A DNA stretch of 64,000 nucleotides from Pontiella desulfatans (GTDB lineage: Bacteria; Verrucomicrobiota; Kiritimatiellia; Kiritimatiellales; Pontiellaceae), in the NCBI RefSeq assembly GCF_900890425.1, contig NZ_CAAHFG010000003.1, positions 186,001 through 250,000 of the forward strand, written 5' to 3'. Positions 24,120-60,952 of this stretch are shown here, piece after piece. A program made the position numbers and the translations under genes. The notes beneath the pieces were generated by a model, which did no database searches, was not told the DNA's origin, and saw only the letters and a list, made by a program, of their open reading frames with translations. Positions within the stretch are counted from its first letter, which is position 1. The number at the start of each line of letters is the position of its first letter.

Positions 24120-24217
24120 CAAATTAAACTTTTACCACAGAGGGCACTGAGGCACAGAGGAGCGGGATTGCTATGGTTCTCTGTGTCTCGGTGCCCTCTG
24201 TGGTGAGACCATTCAAA
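24120..24217. repeat. Palindromic repeat, family A, copy 1
   Basis: Inverted arms ACCACAGAGGGCACTGAGGC and their complement surround a short centre; the whole unit including the preceding AAATTAAACT recurs in the same orientation at 33138-33250. It lies between the GH2 stop and its terminator. The rest of the gene-free interval 24089-24502 holds that terminator and otherwise unremarkable AT-rich sequence. Confidence 0.85.
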
Positions 24218-33137: not shown

Positions 33138-33250
33138 TGTCTCAAATTAAACTGATTCGTTTTTTACCACGGAGGGCACTGAGGCACAGAGGAGCGGGGT
33201 TGCCATGGTTCTCTGTGTCTCGGTGTCCTCTGTGGTGGGACCATTCAAGA
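33138..33250. repeat. Palindromic repeat, family A, copy 2
   Basis: Same orientation and about 90% match to 24120-24217, including the AAATTAAACT lead, both inverted arms and the trailing GACCATTCAA. Together the two copies bracket the metal cassette. Confidence 0.85.
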
Positions 33251-33299: not shown

Positions 33300-33727
33300 A
33301 TCCTTAACCCGGGAATGGAACCACGGATGAACACAGATGGACGCTGATATTCAAGAAGATACGAAATTTGTCCCACCCTCCCCGAGGGATAGATGTCGGT
33401 TAAGCATATCCTGTTTGGGCATCTGTGCTTATCCGTACTACTATCCGTCAATTTCTTATTTTCATGACAAGTTTTCACCACCCGCTGCGCTAGAGGACAC
33501 TGAGGCTCAGAGGATTAGGATGCTCTGTGTCTCTGAGTTCTCTGTGGTAAAAAAATCTGAGTCTTCGGTGTTAATCAGTGGTTCTAAACAATTTGGTTGC
33601 GGCTATGCCGCGCCAGGTTCTCTGTGGTAAAAAAATCCGTGTCTTCGGTGTTCATCAGTGGTTCTAAACAATTGGGTTGCGGCAATGCCGCGCTAGGTTC
33701 ATCTGTGGTTCATTTACGTTTCCAGGT
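33300..33727. repeat. ~420 bp composite dispersed repeat, copy 2 (inverted)
   Basis: This is the reverse complement of 4713-5131, ending at CATTTACGTTTCCAGG. It contains internally repeated blocks (TCTCTGTGGTAAAAAAAT, GTCTTCGGTGTTCATCAGTG, CAATTTGGTTGCGGC). With the family A copy and a 65-bp leader it fills the interval between tRNA-Ser and the giant TPR gene. Confidence 0.85.
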
Positions 33728-33892
33728 TTATGCATCCCCCCGCTGATGCGGAAACGCGAATGACCCTCGAAATGCGCCCGTCTTCGTTGTTTGAGGTTGC
33801 GCATCGTTGTTTTTGCATTAACTTCAACGGATGCCCATTCGCTGGAATACAACGGTACGGAGAAAAGGCCGAGCAATACCTCGGAATCGACC

Positions 33893-36800
33893 ATGGCTAA
33901 CATAGGATTGCCACGAAGAGGCACAAGAAGCACAAGGGCGCCGGTAGGGAAGGTCTTCGTGCTTCTTGTGCTTTTTTGTGGCCAATCCATGCCGATCCTG
34001 TCGCAACCGGAGGGGAAGGCGGCGGACTATTACCGGATACTGGAACGGAATCCACGACCGGGCTATCTCTTCGAACGCTTCCGCGATGCCTGGCTGGAGC
34101 AGCACGACCTGGCGGAGCTTGAGACGTTCCTGGCCGAGGAGGAGATGGATCTCCTGCTTGCGTTCCACTATGAGGCCGGCGGCGAACCCCAGCGCGCGGT
34201 CGAGGTCTACGGCCGCCTGCTCGAAGCCCGTCCCGACTGGCCGCAGGTGCTGTTCTACAGCGCATCCGCCCACGCGCGGCTCGGCCACTATCCGATCGCC
34301 GGGAAGCAGGTGGAAAAGCTGTTGGCGCAGGAGCCCGATGCCGAGCTGCGGCGCAAGGCGCTGGCATTGCTGGGGCGTTGCCAGGTGCGTGCGGGGCGGA
34401 CGGAAGAGGGCGTGCAAACCTGGGAGCGCATGCTCGCCGACGAAGGGTTGGATTCCGGCGTCGCCGACGATCTGCTCGACCTGCTGCTTGCCGAAGGGCT
34501 CCACGAAAAGGCGCTGGAGCTTTGCAACCGGATGCTGGCCGGAACCACCGATGCGTTTCGCGGTGTTGAGCTGCGTATGCGCAAGGCGATCATCCTCGTC
34601 CGGCTCGACCGGCGCGACGATGCGGTGGCCTGCCTGCGCGAAGCCTTCGGGAAGGCGGGGCAGGGCTCGTGGTTGCGGCGCGACCTGCTCGCGCGTATCG
34701 ATCGGCTCTATCGCGGCGCCGACAATCTGGACGGCCTGCGCATGTGCCTCGCCGAGATGCGGAAGGTGTGGCCCCGGTCGCAGCAGCTGCAACAGCGATA
34801 TGCCGAAACGCTGGCGGCGACCGGGAAGGATGCCGAGGCGCTCGAAACCGCGCGCGCGCTGGTGGCGGCGATGCCCGGCGAGCGCGAGGTGCGCGAATGG
34901 TATGCCGGGTTCCTGCTCAACCTCGGCGAGACGCAGGAGGCCATCCGCCTCATGGTGGAGTTCCTTGACCGCTTCCCGGACGACAACGACCTGCGCCTGC
35001 GCATGGCCGCGCTCGACGAAGCAAAACGCACGCACTGGATTTGGCAATACCTTGAACATTCGGCCGCCCGCGAATCGGACTATCTGCGGGCGGCGCGGGA
35101 ACTCAAGCGCTTCGGGTTGGATAACGAAGCCACCTCGGTCTACATGGAAATGCTGGCCCGTTGGCCGGAGTCGTTCGACGGCCGCGAGGCCGTTGCGCTG
35201 CACCTGGCGCGGCAGGGCGGCGTGCAGTTGAAGCTGGCCATGAAGCACTATGAGTGGCTCGCGGTTCGCTGCGACCTCGAGACGCTGGTCCGGCTTTCGA
35301 AGACCCTGCTGGCGGTGAACGATGCCCCCGCCGCCGCGCACCTGCTGGCCCTGCGCACGGACGATTTCGCGAACGAGTATCGTTTTGCGGCGGCGCGCTA
35401 CGAGGCGGCCTTCGCCGCTGGCGAGCTGGACCAGGCGCTGGAGCTTGGGTGGGTTCGCGTAGACCTGGCCCAGGCGCCGGCCGAACTCGAACGCTCGGTG
35501 GCGGAGCTGCTCTATCTGCTTAAGATGGAAAAGAAAACCAAGGCCTGGAGCGAGCGCCTGGAAAACGAGCAGGGGCGTGGCATCGGGCGCACATGGCTGC
35601 TCGCTTCGCTCTATCTCGACGCGGGCGAGCCCGGCCAGGCCGACGCGCTGCTCATCGGCAATCCGGCACTCAGGCCGTGCCGCCTGATGCTCGCCCGGCA
35701 TACGCGGAACCTGGAATTGCTGGAGCAGCTGTTGCTCGAACTGGTCGAGGACGATCCGGCGTCGAAGTCCAAGTGGCTGCGGGAGCTGGTGGACGTGCTC
35801 CACCGCGCCGGCAAGACCGGTGAGGCCCTGGAGTGGATTGCGGTATGGAAGGGGGTGTCGCCCAATTCAACGCGGCCCTACGAACTGGAGCGCGACGTGC
35901 TGCTGGAGGCCAACCGTCCCGATGAAGCGGTGGCCGCCCTGCGCCGCGCGGTGGCGCGCTTCGACGATTCGAAGGAGCTGAGGCGCGGGTTGGGTTTGCT
36001 CTATGAAAAGACCGGCCGCGCCCGGGAGGCGGAGCAACTCTACTGGCGGATGCTCAATGCCGAGGAAGAGCTGCGCGAACGGTTGTCGCTGCTCGCCGAC
36101 CTGATCCGCGTGGCGCAGGCGGGCGACCGCCTGGATCTGTTGGTCGAGGAGCTGGAGCGTCGTTCCGAAAAGTCGGGCGAGGCGTTGTTCCCCTTGCTGG
36201 GCTTGGTCGAGTGCCACCGGGCCGACCGCAATGTCGCCGCCCGTAGCGAGGCGCTGGAGCGCGTGCTCGAACTGCGCCCGAACGATCTCCGCGTCCTGCG
36301 CGAAAAGGCGCGGCTCGAGGAGGAGCTCGGCAACCATGCCGCCGCGCGCGACCTGATGCTGCGCATTGCCCAATCCGATGCCCCCGGCGACGCCTTGCGC
36401 AAGGTGGCGGAATATGAACTGCTGTTCGGCGATGAGCAGCAGGCGGCCCGGCTGCTGGACGATCCGCGGCTGGAGACGGCCGACGTGGTGGCGCTGGCGG
36501 AAACGCTCCTGGAAAAAGGCTGCCTTCCGCTGCTGACCGGTTTCCTGCGGGAGCAGGCCACGGCGGATGCGGATTTCGACCTCCTCTACCTGTATGCCCT
36601 CTCGCTGGAAGAGGGCGGCCAACCCGCCCGCGCGGTGGAAGCCTTTGGGCGGGTGCTGGCCTTGGCCGATGCCGATTCCGGCAACGAGTTGGAGCGGGTG
36701 CTCGATTCCATGCGGGCCGGCGACGCGGCCTATGCCTATCGCCAAAACGGCCGTTTGGGTCCTTCGGGGGGCTGGAAGCCGCGCGATGTTCCAACGGCAA

Positions 36801-39800
36801 AGCGCTATGCGCTGGCCCACCTCGGCCAGCTGCTTGCCGCATTGCCGCAGGGGCAGCGCAAGGCGCCTCCGGTTCCGTATGGACGGTTGTTGCTCATCGA
36901 CGCTCGCTGGCCCCTGTCGAGTCCGGAGTGGTGGAACGAGGCGCTTCGCCTTTATCCCGATTCGGACGAGCTGGCCCTGAAGCGCCTGTCCATCGCCCCG
37001 CAAACGCTGGAATCCGAGGCGGCGGTTCGCGCCGCGTTGGCGCACGTTCCGGAAGGGGAGCCGGGCGTGGCCTTGGATGTGCTGATGCGGTTCCTCGAAA
37101 AGTATCCGGCCCTGATCGACCAGTTGCCCGGGGTGGCCGGGCGGATGATGCAACGAACCGCCGACCTCGAAAAACTGGCGAAGGCGGTCGGGCGGCGCGC
37201 CATGCCCCGCGACCCGTTGCGGGAGGTTCCGCCCGGGCTGGCCGCGCTGGTGGCGCCGATCCTGGAAAAGGCCGAGGCGACCGAAGGCTTTCCCCCGGGG
37301 GCGCTGCATCAGCTGCGCATGCAGCAGGCGCTGCTGGACGGGGATTATGCCGCCGTGGCGGAGCTGCTCCGGCAACGGTTCGACCGCGAGGTGGATCCGA
37401 AGCCGGTACCGCCACGGACGACCGCAAGCACCCGCTTCCCTCCCGACGGGCTGTTCGATGCCGATGCGCTGATTCTGCAAGGGCTGGCCGGGGAGGTGTT
37501 CTTTCGCGACGGGCTGATGGAGGCGTTGCGCGGGCGGGACGATGCCCGCTTGTATTGCGCCTTGGCCCTCGCCCATTTGAATGCGCCCGAGGAAGAGGTT
37601 GCCGCGCGCATGGAGGCCATCGGGGCGCAGGCGGCGCCGACGGACGACGAGCGTTTTGCGCTCGTCTGTTGGCATGCGGAACGGAAGCCGGAGCAGGCGC
37701 TGCGGTTGATGCTGGAGCTGGCCGAAGCCGATGCCGCGTCCGGCCATCGCGCATGGGTCGAGGCGATGTTGTTGGCCTTGGCCGCGCCGATGGATCCGGT
37801 TCCCGAAAACCTGAAGCCGGAATTGTGCGGGCAGTTGGAGCGGATGAAACCGGCGACGCACCTGGGGCAGAAGGAGCGGTTTCAATTGCTGGCCTTGGCT
37901 GAACGGCTGGGACTGCCGGTCGAATCCTTCTTCCCTGCCCCGGGGGCGGCCGTGGCGGCCCGGCCCGCGCGCACGGTGCACCGGGTGCCCGATCCCTACC
38001 AGCAGGTCCGCGAGCTGATCCAGAAAAAGCAGACCGCCGCCGCGCTCGAGCTCGTGGCCGGCATGCTCCGGAAGGAGGCGCAGTCGCACCTCTTTTCGCC
38101 GCAGGCCGCCGCGCCATCCAGCCACCACCTGGTGAACAGCGTTCGCGAAATCCAGCGCAACAAGCTGGGGCCGGAGCTGCTGGGCGGGTTGGCGCCGAAG
38201 GATGACGCCCCGCATCCGCGGCGCGTCTTCGAGCATGCCTTCTCGTGCGAAATGCTGGGGGAGCGCGACCGTGCGCTGGCGAGCTACCAACGGTTGTATG
38301 CCCTGCGTCCCGAATGGCGCGGCGCCACCGTGCGCTATGTCCATTTGCTGGCCTTGGCCGATCCGGAGGCGGCCGCCAAGGTGGTCGCCGGGTTCTCGCC
38401 GCGGATGCTGGCGGCGTTGGTTGGCATGTTGCAAGCCACGCTGCAGGACCGGAGCGTAACCCACGAGCAGCGGCTGGCCTTGTGCGGGCTGGTGGCGAAG
38501 GGGTTGGTCGACACCCCGGCCCCGGCGCGGAACGAATTTTCCAATGCCTCCATGCAGCTGCAGCAGGCCGTGGCCGCGAACGATTGGCACGAGCACCGGC
38601 GCGGCTCGCTGCCCGGGCTTTTTTCCGTTCAGGAAAAGGGGGCCTTCGCCGAAGGCTGGCAACCTCCGGACGACTTTGCGCAAGATGCCGCGTTGGCCGC
38701 GATCCAGCAGCGGCGGCGCGAGCTCTATCTGGACATGTGCAAGACCATGGCGCGCATCGATGCGTTGAGGCTGGAGGGGTTCACGCAGCTGATGCGCTAC
38801 CTCGACCATGTGGGCCTGGCGCCCGATCCCGGCGAGCTCCTTCCGCTGGCCGAGCATATCCTGCGCGAGGGCAAGGGAACCGCCTGGAGCTATTCGCGCG
38901 GGTCCGGCCGCGGCCGCACGGTTTCGCCCATGACGTTCTATCTGCTGGAGCAGCGGCGGGCCGGCCGGCTGGACGCGGTGGAGGCGTTGCTCGGCGAGTT
39001 GGCGGAATCGAACATCTACCGCGATGCCCTGGCCGCCCTGCTGCGCATCCAGGCCATGGAGGACGGGCCGGACTATGCCGCGGCGGTGGGCGAAACGTTG
39101 GCCTCGCGGAATTGGGGCTACGGTTTCCATGAGGCGTTGCTGAAGCTGCACGATATGGACGGGCGCACGACCGATCTCGACGCCGTCTTCTGGGAGCGCG
39201 TGCGCGGCTGGAACGGCAACTATGGCGCGAGTGCCAGAAGCAGCGCCATTGCGGCGTGGATCGATGCGAAGCAGGAGGAGGCCGATCCGCAGGCGACGGT
39301 CGGTTTCGTGCAACGCCTGCTGGAGGTTTCGTTCTCGCAGTCCGAGCGGGAACTGTTGGGGTCGGTGGCCGAGGGGGGAATCGGGCGGCAGACCCATCCC
39401 TCGGCCTACGCGAAATACCAGCAGGTGGTTCAGGTGCTGAACCAGGTTGGGTATCGCCCGGATACGGTGCCGGGGCTGGTGGATCTGCTGGCCGGGTATG
39501 ACCATTCCATCCAGGAAGGGCGCGCGGCGGCCGACCTGTTCCGTAGCCATTCGTCGGAGGCGGTGCGCGATGCCTGGCTGGAGCAGTTCGGGCTGTTCGC
39601 CGATTGGGCGGACTATCCCTTCCGCACCCTGCCAAACGCGCGCCAACCGATGCTGGACCTGGTGCTGATCCGCCTGCGCGGGGCCGCAGGCACGGCCAGC
39701 CGCGAACGGTTGATGGCTCTCGAAACCCCCACCTTTGGCGAAGGGGTGCTGCGGGTGCTGCTGGATACGCGCAGTACTTCGGAGCGCCCCTCCAGGATGC

Positions 39801-42800
39801 TGGACTATCTCGAGGGGCAGGCGGAAACCATTGTGGCGGATCCGGCCCGGCACAACGACCTGTTCCGCTGGTTCGATGCGCTCGTGCGGGCCTCGCGCTC
39901 CTCGGTTGATCCGGCCGGCGGCGGGGACGTGCTTGCGCTCTACAACCGCTGGAAGGTGGAGCATGGCCTGCGGCGCTGCGAACGGTTGCTGGCCTTGGAT
40001 GCGGCGGATGCGCTGGCCAACTGGAACCATTGGAAGCAGGAGTGGGGCGAGGTGGTGAAGGCGCTCTCCGCCACCCATCCGGAGGAGCTGCTGGCGATGT
40101 CGGTGCACCTGGCGCACGTGCAACGGCTCGAAGCGCTGGCGGGGGGGCGCGCGATGGATGGTGCGCAGGTGTTGCGGAGCATGTTTGGCCAGGCGTCGTA
40201 TACGGAGGCGGAAGCCCGGTTGGCCGAGCGCATGGTCGATGCGTTGGCCGACGATCCGGCGCGCGCCTGGTTGCGGGAATACCGGCGCATGCTCAGCTAC
40301 CGCATGTTCGAGCGGGTGGAGCGGCGGTTGCGTGCGGAAGGCGCCGACCAGCGCACGGCCCGGTTCGGGGCGTGCTGCGAAATCCTGGCCGTGCTGCTCG
40401 ATGGCCACGGTACCGCGCTGGAGGGGGTGCAGAGCTGCGTGGCCCGCATCGACCGCAACGATTTCCCGAAGCTGGCGGCATGGCTGGCGGAGGCGCAACT
40501 GCCCGAGTCCGACATGAAGCGCCTGCTGGAAACCTACCTGGCCGGCCGGGAGGGCGATGCCGCATGGGTGAAGGCCTATCTTTCCGATGAATCCAAACCA
40601 CCCGGGGAGCGGTTGCAGGCCTATTCCTGGCTTGTTGGAACGGGCGCGGACAAGCTGGCGGTGCTGGATGAGCCGGAGCTGGTGCTGGGACTGCTCGAGC
40701 TGGGCGGCGATGGGCCAACCGACCCTATTCCGGGCAACGCCTACCTGACCCTAGTCCATCATGTGCGGGGCATGGAACCGGTGAAGGACCGCCTGGCCCT
40801 GGCGCAGCGGTTGTTCGTGTTGTGGAAGGGGGGAAAGGTCAACCTGTCGGGCGCCGATGCCAACAGCCTGCGCCTGCTGGCGGGATTGGCCGCCGAGGTG
40901 GGGCTCGTTGAAGAGGCGGTTGCATTCCTTTCAACGCCGGAGCTGGCGGAGAGCCCGCAGACCTATGCCGTGGCCCTGCGCCATGGGCTGGATGCCTTCG
41001 TGGCGGAACAGCTGCCGCGCAAGTTGCTCGGCCTGGAGAACGCCTATCGGGCCGCGGAAGTGTGGATCAACAAGGAGGCCGCCGGGCGGCGCGAAGCCAT
41101 CGCCGCGCAGGTTGCCGATCCGGAACTGCGTCTGCTGGTGGAGCTGTTCATCGCCGTGCTGCCGGTGAAGGCGGGCCAGAATAAATATCTGGTAGACCAT
41201 AAAACCCTCGTTCCGCTGCTCAAGCGCGCCGCCGAGGAATTAACAAAACCGGAACATGTTGAGTGGGTGGCCACCACCATGGAGCACAACCGGATCAAGC
41301 AAGGCCTGGAGCCCATCAACCGGCTCTATGCCGAAACAATGAGCGTGTCGACCGTTCTGCGCAAGAATGATCGCGCCATGAGCAATATCTACCTGCGCTA
41401 CCTCGGCGAGCTCGCCGCAGAAACCAACCTCGTCCGCCTAGGGGAACTTGCGGATCAATTGGTCGGGAATGTGGGCGCGGACGACGTTCGCCACGCCCAC
41501 CGCAAAAGCGTTTGCAACGCCCTTGTGAAATACACGGTTGAGTCGGGCGACCAAGCGTTGATGGAAACGGGCATGGCCATCGGCTTTGGGTTGTGGGCTC
41601 AGGAACGGGCGGCTGGCTGGGTCGGGGATCGGCAATCCTGCTATTGGTTCGTTGGGAAGGCGGCCTCCATGGGCATGAAGGATCCGGCGGCCGCATTGCT
41701 GGCGGTGCCGGAGTTGTTGGCCTGTCCGGAAACCTATGCCGTTGCCTTGCGGGCGGGGCTCGATGCCTTTGTGGCGGATCGGTTGCCAGACCATTTGTTG
41801 GCGCTGGAAAACAACTATGCGCCGCAGCGTGTTTGGATTCCGCAGGAGGCGGCGGAACGTCGCGAGGCCATTGCGCTGCCGGTGGACGATGCGGCGATGC
41901 GTTTGCTGGTGGAGTTGTTTGTTGCCATCCTACCCACCCGGACGGAGGGGGACCGCTTCCTGGTGGATGCCGAGACCCTTGAACCGTTGCTGGCGCGTGC
42001 GGCGTGCGAGTTGACCGATCCGGAGCAGATTCGCTGGGTGGTGAATACCTTCATCTACGGGGCCACAAAAGAGGCCGTGCCGGAGTTCGACCAATTCTTC
42101 ACCCGGAAAATGCCTGCCGACGTTGTTTTACACGTTTCCACCGGCCATTTGCTGGATGCCTATGGGCGCTATGTCGATGAGCTCGCCGCTTCCCGCGATT
42201 ATGCGCGGTTGAGTGAAATCGTGGATCGGCTCAACGGCGGAATCTCTGCAGCCGACCTGGAGAGTCCGGGGAGTCGCCGGTTTTGCGACCGGCTGGTTCG
42301 CTATGCCCTCTATTCCGGCAACGATTCGCTGGTGCCCAAAGGTATTGGACTCGGCATGCAGGTGGAGGGGCTGGCGAATCCTGATCAGGAACCGAAACGC
42401 GGCGATGTCTTGCGGAAGCACGGATGGGTTGAGTTCGATCCCTCGGTCTACGGACTGGACTTGGTGGATGATTCGGAACGCCTTGATGCATTCGATCGGT
42501 TCGATGTCGAAATCATGAAGACGATCCAGCACCGGTTCACCCTGCTCGGCCTGGATCCAGACAAAGCCCCGGATCGGAGCCGGGGGCAGCGGGCGATCTT
42601 GGCGGATTGGATCGAGCGCGCCGGGCGGACTGGTTTTGCCCCGCTTAGAAAAACCCTATACATGTTCCTCTGGAACTACGGGACAACCCAAGAGGAGCTT
42701 GCCGCACATTCCGCTTGGCTTGATGGGCAGGGCGGGGAATCGCTTATGCAGGATCAGGTCAAGGCCATTCTGGCCATGGTGCGGTTGCAAAAGGGCGGGG

Positions 42801-45382
42801 GGGAAGAGCAAGCCCTGCTGTCTGATGTGTCCCGCTATCTTGGCCGTCCGGATCTGGACGTAGCCGAAAAAGTTCGCGTTTGCGTGAAGATCACCAGCGA
42901 TCTCTCGTCGAAGCAGCGCAAGGCGTTGGTGCCGGTTGTGCTTGGCGCGTTGGCGGAGTCGGATGCGCTTGCCATGAGCCACGGGTATACCGTTTTGCCG
43001 TCTGCCCCGGTTCCGCCTGGCCTGGAGGACTACCCGCTCTACCAACGCATTGCCAACGGTCGGTTCAGAAGGCTGGCCCTGTTGGAAGACGAAGAAAAAC
43101 GAGACAAGGATACGCGGGAATCGGCCCTGCTTTTGCTGGAAACGCTGTTTGCTTTGGGGCGGACGGACGATGCCCTTGGCTTGATGAACGACGAAGGCTT
43201 TCAACTATACCTGGAGCCGAAGGCCTTCGCCTTGGCGCTCGAAAACGGGCAGGTGGAATGGTGCGAACAGCGGGTGGAGGAGTTGGTGCTTTCCTATGCG
43301 CCGCCCGGAGGCCACCGGGAACTTGTGCCCGACAGTCCGGCGGTGCAACGCTTGATCGATTCGGTGGACGATCCCGACATCCAACTGGCGGCACGCGTTC
43401 TTTTCTGGGAATTGGCGCGAAAGACCAGTAGCCGCGACAAAATGGTTTTCGACGGGGTTGATCCGGTCGGCCACGTTTTCTCGAACCCGCTTTGCGGCAT
43501 CCAGGTGCGCCGCCTCCTGGAGTCCCGCGGAATGGCCGATCCGACCGATCCCGACCCGTGCACCGCCGCGTGGATTGCATCGGTCAACCTGGATGAGCTG
43601 CCGCAGCTGGTGGAGAAGTTCACCCTCCTTGAACGGGAGGCGTTCGAACGTTTTGTCTATGGGTTGTTCGAGGGTGGCCAGATGGCGCGGGTTTGCGCGA
43701 TGTACGAAAGGCTGGCGGCGGAAACGTTTGATGTTCCCACGGCCGACTGGCTTGTCGATCTCCCCGTGACGCGCAACGGCACCTATTGCTACAGCATGTA
43801 CCGGGGACGCGCAATCAAGGCTCCCGCCCGGTTCAAGGATGTGGATGTTGAATCGTGGAAGGTGTTGCTGGAGGCCATGGATCGGATACACCGGAACAGC
43901 GAGTCCAGACGTTGGCTGTCCAACGATGTGGCCCGGGCGGCATTCTGCATTAGTGCCCTGCTTGAGGATCCGAAGTTTCTGGAAAGCTTAAAGATCAACC
44001 GCGTATCGCGCCCGGCCCTGCTGTTCCCCGCCTTCACGCTTTATTCGGGCGCGCATTGGGATTACGCCAACTATGCGAAAATGGAACGGGCGCTTTCGGG
44101 ATATGTTTCCGCGCTCCAGGCGGCCAAGGCGAGGGGCGGGACTAATGAACCGGGGCGGCAACCCTGGCCGGAAGTGGCGGCTGATGTTTTGAACTATTTT
44201 CCCTACAGCAAGAACAAGACCCATTGGTCGCGCTTCCTCGTGGAAACCTTTCCCGACCTGTTCCCCTCGCTCGTGCAGGGGGGGACTGCCGGGAAGAAGG
44301 TTTCCGACGGTGTGTTCCTGAAGGCGCTTCGGGAGGGGGAGCTGGAGTGGTGCAAGGAGTATGTGGAGGGGTTCGTTGTTTCTTTCTCCCCGTTAAGTGG
44401 GCGCCGGCCGGCTGTGGAGGAAAGCCCCGCCCTGCTGGAGCTGGCCGAGTCCGTTTCCGATCCCGCCCTGCGGCTTGCGGCCCGTCTGATGTTCTGGGAA
44501 ATGGCTCGTAGAAGCAGTAGCAAGGATCGATTGGATGTTGATATCGAGGCGCTTGGCGAAATGGAGTTTGCGGATCCGCTTTGCGCGGTGCAGGTGTACC
44601 ACGTGCTGGAGAACCGGGGCTTGGTTGGCGCCGCCGAGTTGGAGCGGTATGCCTGTGCATGGGTGGACGACACCGGACTCGATGCGGTGCTCGGGCGCAT
44701 TAAGGATTTATCCTCGCTGGAGTTCGTGGCGTTCGAGACCTACATCAATGCCCTGCTCGATAGCGGTCGCATCGGCGAGGTGTGCGCCATCTACGAAAAG
44801 CTATGCAAGCAAACCTACTGGGCAAACTTGGCGAACCGATTGGTTGAACTACCTTCCCTCCGCACCGAGGCGTTGCGTTTTCAGTTGTCCAAAGGACAGC
44901 CGGTGACCGCCCCGGGAAGGTTCAACCCGGTCGATATCGAACGGTGGTTCGAACTGCTCAAGTTAACCGATCGGTTGCACGCAACGAGCACTCCCGACAA
45001 ATGGGATTCCAATGTGGTCGGCGCGCCCTATCTCGTTGCGAGTATCCTTTCCGGGCGGCCTGGCGAATTCAGGAAATTCCACCGACGGGGAGTGGGGCGG
45101 GCAAGCACGACGTTTCCGGTGTTCACCCTGTTCGCGGGGCTTCAGGACGGCGATGCCGATCCGGAGAAGATGAAGGACGTGCTGGAACAATTCTGTGCGG
45201 CCCTCACCCGGTACAAGGCAAGCGGAGAGATCAACACGCTCAATCATATGAAATGGAGTTCGGTGACTAGCGCGGTGCTGGCAACCTATCCCTACAGCGA
45301 GGATAGGGAAAAATGGTTCGAGGTGCTGGCGGGGATTGTACCCGAACCGCTCGACCGGGAAGCGTTGCTTAAACCCCGCTGA
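33893..45382 (+). CDS. Giant exported TPR-repeat protein with duplicated C-terminal modules
   Basis: The predicted product has 3829 residues. The start is set at the ATG at 33893 because it begins a basic stretch (LPRRGTRSTR) followed by a hydrophobic core (VFVLLVLFCG), a plausible signal peptide; the frame is open to 33791. Residues about 50-1000 are a long series of TPR-like helical pairs (AVEVYGRLLEARPDWPQVLF, EAIRLMVEFLDRFPDD, AREAEQLYWRMLNAEEELR). The middle is helical without clear repeats. Near the C-terminus, two ~258-residue copies (about 2350-2607 and 2608-2865) and two ~365-residue copies (about 3104-3472 and 3473-3829) occur. No catalytic motif was recognised. It is likely a periplasmic or surface scaffold. 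It is flanked by repeats and convergent with the nif operon. Confidence 0.85.
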   Translation: MANIGLPRRGTRSTRAPVGKVFVLLVLFCGQSMPILSQPEGKAADYYRILERNPRPGYLFERFRDAWLEQHDLAELETFLAEEEMDLLLAFHYEAGGEPQRAVEVYGRLLEARPDWPQVLFYSASAHARLGHYPIAGKQVEKLLAQEPDAELRRKALALLGRCQVRAGRTEEGVQTWERMLADEGLDSGVADDLLDLLLAEGLHEKALELCNRMLAGTTDAFRGVELRMRKAIILVRLDRRDDAVACLREAFGKAGQGSWLRRDLLARIDRLYRGADNLDGLRMCLAEMRKVWPRSQQLQQRYAETLAATGKDAEALETARALVAAMPGEREVREWYAGFLLNLGETQEAIRLMVEFLDRFPDDNDLRLRMAALDEAKRTHWIWQYLEHSAARESDYLRAARELKRFGLDNEATSVYMEMLARWPESFDGREAVALHLARQGGVQLKLAMKHYEWLAVRCDLETLVRLSKTLLAVNDAPAAAHLLALRTDDFANEYRFAAARYEAAFAAGELDQALELGWVRVDLAQAPAELERSVAELLYLLKMEKKTKAWSERLENEQGRGIGRTWLLASLYLDAGEPGQADALLIGNPALRPCRLMLARHTRNLELLEQLLLELVEDDPASKSKWLRELVDVLHRAGKTGEALEWIAVWKGVSPNSTRPYELERDVLLEANRPDEAVAALRRAVARFDDSKELRRGLGLLYEKTGRAREAEQLYWRMLNAEEELRERLSLLADLIRVAQAGDRLDLLVEELERRSEKSGEALFPLLGLVECHRADRNVAARSEALERVLELRPNDLRVLREKARLEEELGNHAAARDLMLRIAQSDAPGDALRKVAEYELLFGDEQQAARLLDDPRLETADVVALAETLLEKGCLPLLTGFLREQATADADFDLLYLYALSLEEGGQPARAVEAFGRVLALADADSGNELERVLDSMRAGDAAYAYRQNGRLGPSGGWKPRDVPTAKRYALAHLGQLLAALPQGQRKAPPVPYGRLLLIDARWPLSSPEWWNEALRLYPDSDELALKRLSIAPQTLESEAAVRAALAHVPEGEPGVALDVLMRFLEKYPALIDQLPGVAGRMMQRTADLEKLAKAVGRRAMPRDPLREVPPGLAALVAPILEKAEATEGFPPGALHQLRMQQALLDGDYAAVAELLRQRFDREVDPKPVPPRTTASTRFPPDGLFDADALILQGLAGEVFFRDGLMEALRGRDDARLYCALALAHLNAPEEEVAARMEAIGAQAAPTDDERFALVCWHAERKPEQALRLMLELAEADAASGHRAWVEAMLLALAAPMDPVPENLKPELCGQLERMKPATHLGQKERFQLLALAERLGLPVESFFPAPGAAVAARPARTVHRVPDPYQQVRELIQKKQTAAALELVAGMLRKEAQSHLFSPQAAAPSSHHLVNSVREIQRNKLGPELLGGLAPKDDAPHPRRVFEHAFSCEMLGERDRALASYQRLYALRPEWRGATVRYVHLLALADPEAAAKVVAGFSPRMLAALVGMLQATLQDRSVTHEQRLALCGLVAKGLVDTPAPARNEFSNASMQLQQAVAANDWHEHRRGSLPGLFSVQEKGAFAEGWQPPDDFAQDAALAAIQQRRRELYLDMCKTMARIDALRLEGFTQLMRYLDHVGLAPDPGELLPLAEHILREGKGTAWSYSRGSGRGRTVSPMTFYLLEQRRAGRLDAVEALLGELAESNIYRDALAALLRIQAMEDGPDYAAAVGETLASRNWGYGFHEALLKLHDMDGRTTDLDAVFWERVRGWNGNYGASARSSAIAAWIDAKQEEADPQATVGFVQRLLEVSFSQSERELLGSVAEGGIGRQTHPSAYAKYQQVVQVLNQVGYRPDTVPGLVDLLAGYDHSIQEGRAAADLFRSHSSEAVRDAWLEQFGLFADWADYPFRTLPNARQPMLDLVLIRLRGAAGTASRERLMALETPTFGEGVLRVLLDTRSTSERPSRMLDYLEGQAETIVADPARHNDLFRWFDALVRASRSSVDPAGGGDVLALYNRWKVEHGLRRCERLLALDAADALANWNHWKQEWGEVVKALSATHPEELLAMSVHLAHVQRLEALAGGRAMDGAQVLRSMFGQASYTEAEARLAERMVDALADDPARAWLREYRRMLSYRMFERVERRLRAEGADQRTARFGACCEILAVLLDGHGTALEGVQSCVARIDRNDFPKLAAWLAEAQLPESDMKRLLETYLAGREGDAAWVKAYLSDESKPPGERLQAYSWLVGTGADKLAVLDEPELVLGLLELGGDGPTDPIPGNAYLTLVHHVRGMEPVKDRLALAQRLFVLWKGGKVNLSGADANSLRLLAGLAAEVGLVEEAVAFLSTPELAESPQTYAVALRHGLDAFVAEQLPRKLLGLENAYRAAEVWINKEAAGRREAIAAQVADPELRLLVELFIAVLPVKAGQNKYLVDHKTLVPLLKRAAEELTKPEHVEWVATTMEHNRIKQGLEPINRLYAETMSVSTVLRKNDRAMSNIYLRYLGELAAETNLVRLGELADQLVGNVGADDVRHAHRKSVCNALVKYTVESGDQALMETGMAIGFGLWAQERAAGWVGDRQSCYWFVGKAASMGMKDPAAALLAVPELLACPETYAVALRAGLDAFVADRLPDHLLALENNYAPQRVWIPQEAAERREAIALPVDDAAMRLLVELFVAILPTRTEGDRFLVDAETLEPLLARAACELTDPEQIRWVVNTFIYGATKEAVPEFDQFFTRKMPADVVLHVSTGHLLDAYGRYVDELAASRDYARLSEIVDRLNGGISAADLESPGSRRFCDRLVRYALYSGNDSLVPKGIGLGMQVEGLANPDQEPKRGDVLRKHGWVEFDPSVYGLDLVDDSERLDAFDRFDVEIMKTIQHRFTLLGLDPDKAPDRSRGQRAILADWIERAGRTGFAPLRKTLYMFLWNYGTTQEELAAHSAWLDGQGGESLMQDQVKAILAMVRLQKGGGEEQALLSDVSRYLGRPDLDVAEKVRVCVKITSDLSSKQRKALVPVVLGALAESDALAMSHGYTVLPSAPVPPGLEDYPLYQRIANGRFRRLALLEDEEKRDKDTRESALLLLETLFALGRTDDALGLMNDEGFQLYLEPKAFALALENGQVEWCEQRVEELVLSYAPPGGHRELVPDSPAVQRLIDSVDDPDIQLAARVLFWELARKTSSRDKMVFDGVDPVGHVFSNPLCGIQVRRLLESRGMADPTDPDPCTAAWIASVNLDELPQLVEKFTLLEREAFERFVYGLFEGGQMARVCAMYERLAAETFDVPTADWLVDLPVTRNGTYCYSMYRGRAIKAPARFKDVDVESWKVLLEAMDRIHRNSESRRWLSNDVARAAFCISALLEDPKFLESLKINRVSRPALLFPAFTLYSGAHWDYANYAKMERALSGYVSALQAAKARGGTNEPGRQPWPEVAADVLNYFPYSKNKTHWSRFLVETFPDLFPSLVQGGTAGKKVSDGVFLKALREGELEWCKEYVEGFVVSFSPLSGRRPAVEESPALLELAESVSDPALRLAARLMFWEMARRSSSKDRLDVDIEALGEMEFADPLCAVQVYHVLENRGLVGAAELERYACAWVDDTGLDAVLGRIKDLSSLEFVAFETYINALLDSGRIGEVCAIYEKLCKQTYWANLANRLVELPSLRTEALRFQLSKGQPVTAPGRFNPVDIERWFELLKLTDRLHATSTPDKWDSNVVGAPYLVASILSGRPGEFRKFHRRGVGRASTTFPVFTLFAGLQDGDADPEKMKDVLEQFCAALTRYKASGEINTLNHMKWSSVTSAVLATYPYSEDREKWFEVLAGIVPEPLDREALLKPR
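33905..33988. repeat. Palindromic repeat overlapping the giant gene's signal peptide
   Basis: The left arm 33905-33936 and right arm 33955-33988 are near-perfect reverse complements (core CACAAGAAGCACAAG / CTTCGTGCTTCTTGTGC). This is the same style of palindrome seen in intergenic gaps at 45818 and 55901. Here it lies inside the reading frame, encoding residues about 5-32. Confidence 0.8.
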
Positions 45383-45798: not shown

Positions 45799-45817
45799 TT
45801 CTTTTCCTACATTTTTT

Positions 45818-45888
45818 AACCACTAAGGCACTAAGGACTCGAAGTTTTCCTTCGTGCTCTTCTTTGTGTACTTCGTGCCTTTGTGGTT
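45818..45888. repeat. Palindromic repeat between the two small nif-linked genes
   Basis: Arms AACCACTAAGGCACTAAGG and the facing GTGCCTTTGTGGTT / CTTCGTGC segments form a long imperfect hairpin. It fills the 96-bp gap between the 103- and 133-residue genes. Confidence 0.7.
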
Positions 45889-45894
45889 GGCTTT

Positions 45895-55865: not shown

Positions 55866-55900
55866 AACTCACTCCTCCGTCGTGCCATTCAGCACCGTTT

Positions 55901-55970
55901 AAACACCAAGAGCGCAAAGTTCGCGAAGTCCAGTCATTCCAGATCTTCGCGGCCTTTGCGTTCTTCTGTT
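55901..55970. repeat. Palindromic repeat between the ThuA and Gfo/Idh/MocA genes
   Basis: Arms AACACCAAGAGCGCAAAG and CTTTGCGTTCTTCTGTT enclose inner arms TTCGCGAAG / CTTCGCGG. The same family occurs in the nifK downstream gap at about 46325-46407. Confidence 0.8.
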
Positions 55971-55975
55971 GAAAA

Positions 55976-60902: not shown

Positions 60903-60952
60903 GGGAGCGGGGACATTCCTGTCCCCGACGGGGGCAAGAAAGCCCCCGCTCC
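60903..60952. repeat. REP-like element beside the IS
   Basis: Outer stem GGAGCGGGG (60904-60912) / CCCCGCTCC (60944-60952), with competing inner hairpins GGGGACA/TGTCCCC and GGGGGC/GCCCCC. Same architecture as 60161-60206 with different sequence. Confidence 0.75.

Follow-up and report, generated by a model that had tools for sequence, protein, structure and literature searches.

A dispersed palindromic repeat as the probable source of the signal peptide of a large TPR-repeat protein in Pontiella desulfatans

In the genome of Pontiella desulfatans, a dispersed palindromic repeat has in all probability replaced the ancestral signal peptide of a gene for a large, predicted exported TPR-repeat protein and would now supply its export signal, a reading drawn from comparisons of nucleotide and deduced protein sequences. 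The gene lies in a window of 64,000 nucleotides (the whole stretch analysed here; contig NZ_CAAHFG010000003.1, positions 186,001 to 250,000, GC 58%) of a host genome of 8.66 Mb in six contigs. Codons 6-31 of this gene are a 77-nt palindrome at 33908-33984, contained within a slightly longer inverted repeat (Table 1), and the protein begins MANIG-LPRRGTRSTR-APVGK-VFVLLVLFCG-QSMPILS-QPEGKAADYY. The initial annotation had placed an inverted repeat at the 5' end of this gene and had translated its two arms; the repeat is real, with the family core slightly inside the arms given there, and the translations are as it gave them. Its suggestion that a mobile palindrome was turned into an export signal is likewise supported, since, as this reading predicts, homologues carry unrelated ordinary signal peptides in place of the palindrome and further copies lie at codons 1-40 of other exported-protein genes.

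The coding score turns from negative ahead of the palindrome to strongly positive immediately behind it, with +0.56 bits per codon after 33995. The predicted n-region carries a charge of +5 and is followed by a hydrophobic core, which is the layout of a signal peptide for the Sec pathway and signal peptidase I; the 9-residue Kyte-Doolittle mean of VFVLLVLFCG is 3.57, compared with 2.1-3.3 in the signal peptides of the homologues. Candidate cleavage sites, fitted by eye with the (-3,-1) rule, lie after S37 (-3 I; mature protein QPEGKAADYY...) or S32 (-3 G). Export by the Tat pathway was considered and rejected, as RR followed by GT is not a Tat motif, and a lipoprotein was rejected because VLFC is not a lipobox.

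The sequence of events would be as follows. A 77-nt dispersed repeat would have landed at the 5' end of a gene for an exported TPR protein and displaced the ancestral signal peptide. Translation from the putative start ATG 33893 would read on through the palindrome, with the basic n-region LPRRGTRSTR, which extends to K20, encoded by the purine-biased left arm and the h-region VFVLLVLFCG by the pyrimidine-biased right arm. QSMPILS would provide the c-region for signal peptidase I, and the protein would still leave through Sec.

The palindrome belongs to a large repeat family. Its arms 33901-33933 / 33959-33991 are 79% complementary and the inner arms 33910-33933 / 33959-33982 are 88% complementary; as RNA it has a folding energy of -57.8 kcal/mol, compared with -31.6 +/- 3.4 kcal/mol for 200 shuffled sequences (z = -7.8). 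Within the window the arm sequence does not occur a second time except as its own mirror image. A blastn search of the host genome with the 109-nt region gave 58 rows at E<=10, many of them the two strands of one place because the palindrome usually scores on both, and the best non-self match had E = 3.5e-18. Alignment of 13 copies revealed an unconserved loop between conserved arms, whose consensus is TNGCCACGAAGAGGCACAAGAAGCACAAAGAC ... GGTCTTCGTGCTTCTTGTGCCTCTTTGTGGCCA, and a covariance model (CM), R1, was built from these copies. It returned 95 matches at E<=1 in the host genome, corresponding to about 55 places, mostly non-coding; matches were present at E<=0.01 in 24 of the 28 genomes of the genus and, with stricter filters, at E<=1e-5 in 34 of the 116 genomes of the class. 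The window itself holds four weaker relatives at 28 bits or more, against 90.5 bits for the copy at 33908-33984. The intergenic palindromes at 45818 and 55901, to which the initial annotation had likened the repeat, are two of these and belong to the superfamily as distant members, with 31.4 and 28.2 bits. In Rfam no match to the palindrome exceeded the gathering score, and there were just sub-threshold microRNA-hairpin matches of at most 28 bits; a search of plasmid DNA gave no matches.

None of the six homologues of the window gene (loci L022, L023, L024, L025 and L039 in congeners and the paralogue L040 in the host genome) contains the palindrome. All six have short, ordinary Sec-type signal peptides unrelated to that of the window gene (MRWLWRIWVVAALLVPCVYA, MKRLGMGVLFVALSLFA, MGWLYRISFAGLLLGTSVAA, MKFRSVLCLCALVFTAFDGWS and MDLGRKLLLIGLVAGCAATVFA in the congeners and MKVLRVLLMVSLLPFFVFGA in the paralogue), with cleavage points set by eye; all shortly precede a conserved (Q)PEGKxADYYRIL..PRPGYLFERF. 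The tblastn matches to these homologues start at residues 15-28, about where the h-region starts, and homology resumes just after the palindrome. Orthologues keeping the same N-terminal sequence without palindromic DNA were looked for and none was found; the homologous N-termini differ. A scan of genome contigs with the large window protein returned no confirmed relative.

A search for repeats at codons 1-40 of genes located copies at other exported-protein genes, three of which have empty sites in relatives; one genome per species was compared, and the empty sites are all between species, none at strain level. The first is BatD (L141/L252; host C4:251374), which has orthologues of 56-76% identity in fifteen other genomes. 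Thirteen of the fifteen have readable 5' ends (loci L254 and L259 were left out), and none of the thirteen has the palindrome; their signal peptides are of the MKRLFLILALVTGTASA|STNFYA type and they start at a syntenic spot near the upstream gene end '..TGGTA(A/G)'. The host BatD reads MKQRKRRIDCHKRTQRPQSLYMLLFGVFCALSWPTKAGA|ETNS, with the palindrome in place of the h-region and with the start position and cleavage region kept (TKAGA|ETNSYAQ junction).

The second is a predicted secreted protein with no Pfam family (L118; host C1:410724), which shares the palindrome with its orthologue of 83% identity in genome G016. In both, the start ATG lies at the edge of the palindrome (MATKR...LCAS[C/Y]AFLWL...), 11-12 nt past the upstream stop codon and preceded by CAGGAAT / CAGGGAAT. 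Orthologues in genomes G001 and G008 (75-76% identity) are without the palindrome, and both tblastn matches begin at residue 27, the first residue after it; in G001, ATGAAAAAATTAAATGTA..., MKKLNVHLLTFCVVATTSCFA|RDYQ follows the end of the same upstream gene. The third is a HupE/UreJ-like protein of G016 (L180/L312), MATKRHGKHKDKKAVGIRVFCDFLWLCLILLSSVVEA|HEMN, whose ATG overlaps the upstream stop; at the same site G001 reads GTG-KRIWLFLVFMLTGFQGLEA|HEMN without the palindrome. The HupE/UreJ orthologues L313 and L314 (genomes G024 and G027) have signal peptides containing YAFLCSLWL and CAFFCFAWF, which are possibly decayed palindrome copies. About six further signal-peptide cases are probable (L140 and L135 in the host genome, L200, L175 and L199; Table 1). 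For the sulfatases a search for an empty site met many paralogues and gave no clean empty site.

The L118 pair also bears on the kind of constraint acting on the palindrome. Over its 26 codons the two orthologues differ by no indel or frameshift, and the changes fall 3, 6 and 11 at codon positions 1, 2 and 3, a third-position excess (11/20) with p = 0.038 in a binomial test. The net charge of the n-region, counted from the sequences, is +6 in both, and the stem loses stability, going from -37.1 to -28.9 kcal/mol. This single pair leans towards constraint at the protein level above maintenance of the stem.

That a palindrome can read as a signal peptide appears to follow largely from its composition. 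The left arms of the family are 44% A and 7% T. A frame was called signal-peptide-like if it had no stop codon and if a hydrophobic stretch (9-residue mean of at least 1.8) followed a charge of at least +2, thresholds of our own choosing; by this definition 26% of the palindrome frames qualified (52 host-genome copies, both orientations, three frames). The figure was 1.2% both for random segments and for palindromes with random genomic arms, and 14% for palindromes with their own arms shuffled. Since shuffled arms give 14% and the other controls 1.2%, most of the effect is due to composition together with palindromy and the remainder to the actual sequence. In a tight set of 18 copies, 83% of the oriented copies have at least one such frame. 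As judged from composition, the A-rich, T-poor left arm would encode Lys and Arg and its reverse complement Leu, Phe, Val and Cys, which would be why a copy is often signal-peptide-like in either orientation. More generally, any inverted repeat with one such arm would tend to encode a basic and then a hydrophobic stretch whichever way it is inserted, and an in-frame copy at the start of an exported-protein gene could therefore be tolerated and kept.

Several points weigh against the proposed reading. ATG 33893 has only a weak Shine-Dalgarno sequence (a weak GGA about 8-10 nt upstream), a hairpin of -58 kcal/mol close behind it should hinder initiation, and the palindrome is closely followed by a second in-frame ATG (33989). 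The signal-peptide calls were made from charge, hydrophobicity and the (-3,-1) rule rather than by a trained predictor. The closest homologues of the window gene are of about 50% identity or less, so the insertion is not dated. The third-position excess in the L118 pair is modest, and more than half of its changed palindrome codons are non-synonymous. At least one copy encodes the N-terminus of UPF0102 (L192), which is probably cytoplasmic, and several lie within cytoplasmic proteins, so the repeat is not confined to signal peptides.

The best surviving alternative, which we consider unlikely, is that the palindrome is 5' untranslated DNA and that the window gene starts at ATG 33989, in which case its signal peptide was destroyed and the protein is cytoplasmic or the gene poorly expressed. 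This ATG is in frame and directly 3' of the palindrome, and many family copies lie in the 5' untranslated regions of genes having their own downstream start; however, a signal peptide stands at this point in six of the six homologues, ATG 33989 has no visible Shine-Dalgarno-like sequence and would have the stem directly upstream, and for BatD, the L118 orthologue of G016 and HupE, synteny puts the start no further downstream than the palindrome, and the candidate starts beyond it are poor. It is more improbable still that the gene starts further upstream, at TTG 33791 or 33797 (with the weak signal-like MRLRIVVFALTSTDA), and that the palindrome is a tolerated linker insertion in the mature N-terminus. 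In favour of this, the frame is open as far back as 33764, with a short hydrophobic stretch after TTG 33791. Against it, the coding score of 33791-33892 is -0.10 per codon, where the gene itself has +0.56, the TTG start is without a visible Shine-Dalgarno sequence, and in the homologues no comparable spacer separates the signal peptide from the mature protein. An accidental or convergent palindrome, in an ordinary signal-peptide coding sequence that happened to be self-complementary, can practically be dismissed: basic-then-hydrophobic coding does produce a purine-then-pyrimidine bias that favours partial self-complementarity, but a genome-wide family with the same 77-nt sequence at some 55 places refutes chance, the signal peptides of the homologues are not palindromic, and the RNA folds with a z-score of -7.8.

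Beyond signal peptides, copies occur at other sites within and before genes. One forms the N-terminus of LspA (L196), an inner-membrane protein. Orthologous genes for a B12-binding/radical-SAM protein in the host (L139:1734-3458, minus strand) and in G016 (L173:693-2993, plus strand) carry an in-frame palindrome at the same interdomain linker; the L173 open reading frame (ORF) also matches Y1_Tnp at residues 564-639. In-frame palindromes were also found in an HsdS-like ORF of the host (L148:3001-3077) and a radical-SAM-like ORF of a congener (L204:3001-3077), both named by eye. The PCMT-type genes L197 and L144, from two genomes, each have a palindrome that encodes the N-terminus or immediately precedes it, and in both it occupies the same position ahead of a conserved KEES motif. 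Of the further copies with an ATG-like edge in the host genome and its relatives, most have no coding frame continuing out of the palindrome, so such an edge does not by itself indicate coding. Many ORFs formally starting inside a palindrome (e.g. L120, L124 on the plus strand, L150, L164 and L185) have a good start further downstream; they were rejected as spurious 5' extensions and were not counted. Among copies coding for an N-terminus, 10 belong to exported proteins and 2 do not, against 6 and 20 among copies in 5' untranslated regions (Fisher's test, p = 0.0007), a purely descriptive figure as the classes were assigned by hand and depend partly on the signal-peptide reading. Signal peptides and linkers can both tolerate an insertion, and at signal peptides the insert can also assume the function. 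It is conceivable, though we hold it tentatively, that the family acts as a portable, orientation-independent signal-peptide cassette, basic-then-hydrophobic in either orientation and often in more than one frame, whose spread recurrently makes or replaces export signals in this lineage and may turn cytoplasmic proteins into exported ones.

That the repeat is mobile is suggested by its copy number and by the empty sites, from which movement as a unit is inferred; a target-site duplication was not established for it. Mobilisation by a RAYT transposase was considered and rejected: the host genome has 19 Y1_Tnp matches, and none of these loci has an R1 palindrome at E<=1 within about 1.5 kb on either side.

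Table 1. Features of the window and further probable signal-peptide cases
Feature	Position	Strand	Basis or remark
Large exported (predicted) TPR-repeat protein gene	33893..45382	+	3,829 codons + stop; ORF list, Pfam TPR matches, coding score, homologues
Proposed ATG and first five codons (MANIG)	33893..33907	+	outside repeat core; putative start, from sequence
Palindrome left arm, encodes basic n-region LPRRGTRSTR	33908..33939	+	family alignment, CM match 90.5 bits, translation
Palindrome variable loop, encodes PVGK	33940..33952	+	unconserved portion of family alignment
Palindrome right arm, encodes hydrophobic h-region VFVLLVLFCG	33953..33984	+	family alignment, Kyte-Doolittle
Putative c-region QSMPILS	33983..34003	+	(-3,-1) rule by eye; same PEGK motif shortly behind the signal peptides of homologues
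Alternative in-frame ATG, just 3' of palindrome	33989..33991	+	would give MPILSQPEGK... without signal peptide
Superfamily palindrome	24132..24206	not assigned	CM R1 43.4 bits
Superfamily palindrome	33164..33238	not assigned	CM R1 37.2 bits
Intergenic superfamily palindrome	45817..45889	not assigned	CM R1 31.4 bits
Intergenic superfamily palindrome	55900..55972	not assigned	CM R1 28.2 bits
Two tandem sulfatases	L140, host genome		probable case
TPR protein	L135, host genome		probable case
Fe-S membrane protein	L200		probable case
Mala_s_1-like protein	L175		probable case
LolA	L199		probable case

Small palindromic repeats lying both between genes and in frame within genes have been described from Rickettsia, and also from Wolbachia and Methanocaldococcus (Ogata et al. 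2000 and related work, cited after PMC2229807 and PMC2996958). PMC2996958 describes PARCELs and cites the work on the Rickettsia palindromic elements, and PMC2229807 reviews in-frame fusions of MITEs. Like the Rickettsia elements, the present family is dispersed, with copies that are non-coding and copies in frame inside genes, and, as with other protein-coding palindromic elements, the empty sites at BatD, L118 and HupE point to insertion into pre-existing genes. The Rickettsia elements, which come from a different phylum and are likened here in kind and not by sequence, lie in frame in existing, often conserved proteins, whereas the present repeat would supply the start, the n-region and/or the h-region. 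In Yersinia, an RU-2 element forms part of one predicted signal peptide, that of YPO1552 (Delihas 2007, PMC2759123), and frame-shift reading of RU-1 gives predicted membrane segments (Delihas 2007, PMC2759123; PMC2229807). Unlike RU-2, a single predicted and partial case in a small protein and a proposed new gene fusion, the present family involves several independent genes, syntenic empty sites, one site common to two species, and a division between n-arm and h-arm that works in both orientations. REP/REPIN elements, which are mobilised by RAYT (Y1_Tnp) transposases (PMC2817692, PMC3116915), resemble the present palindrome in being short, high in copy number and mostly non-coding, but the RAYT genes here are not flanked by the R1 palindrome.

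No report of recurrent replacement of signal peptides by a palindromic repeat was found in the open-licence literature. Such recurrent replacement is what is new here, while protein-coding palindromes themselves have precedents. The proposal of the initial annotation that the repeat is a new route to secretion was too strong, as the pathway is by prediction ordinary Sec; it is the origin of the signal peptide that is new. Signal peptides are needed for export and are nearly free in sequence, and their origin is rarely seen; the comparative empty sites appear to catch their replacement by repeats on several occasions in a single genus. The physical reason is simple: of two reverse-complementary arms with biased composition, each encodes one half of the signal. 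The family offers a case, tested by comparison, in which a dispersed repeat contributes a defined function to proteins, and base composition alone would predict which repeat families could supply signal peptides. For gene callers it is a warning: a palindrome at a gene start, though labelled 'intergenic', may be coding.

Two other repeats were observed. A different, GC-rich inverted repeat (GGAGCGGGGACATTCCTGTCCCCG...) flanks one Y1_Tnp gene of the host genome (L049:1075-1168 and 1803-1890) and also occurs in the window at 60904-60952; it is a candidate REP of the L049 Y1_Tnp transposase. Upstream of the TPR-protein gene, at 33580-33700, the window contains two adjoining near-identical stretches (ggttctaaacaatt(t/g)ggttgcggc(t/a)atgccgcgc...).
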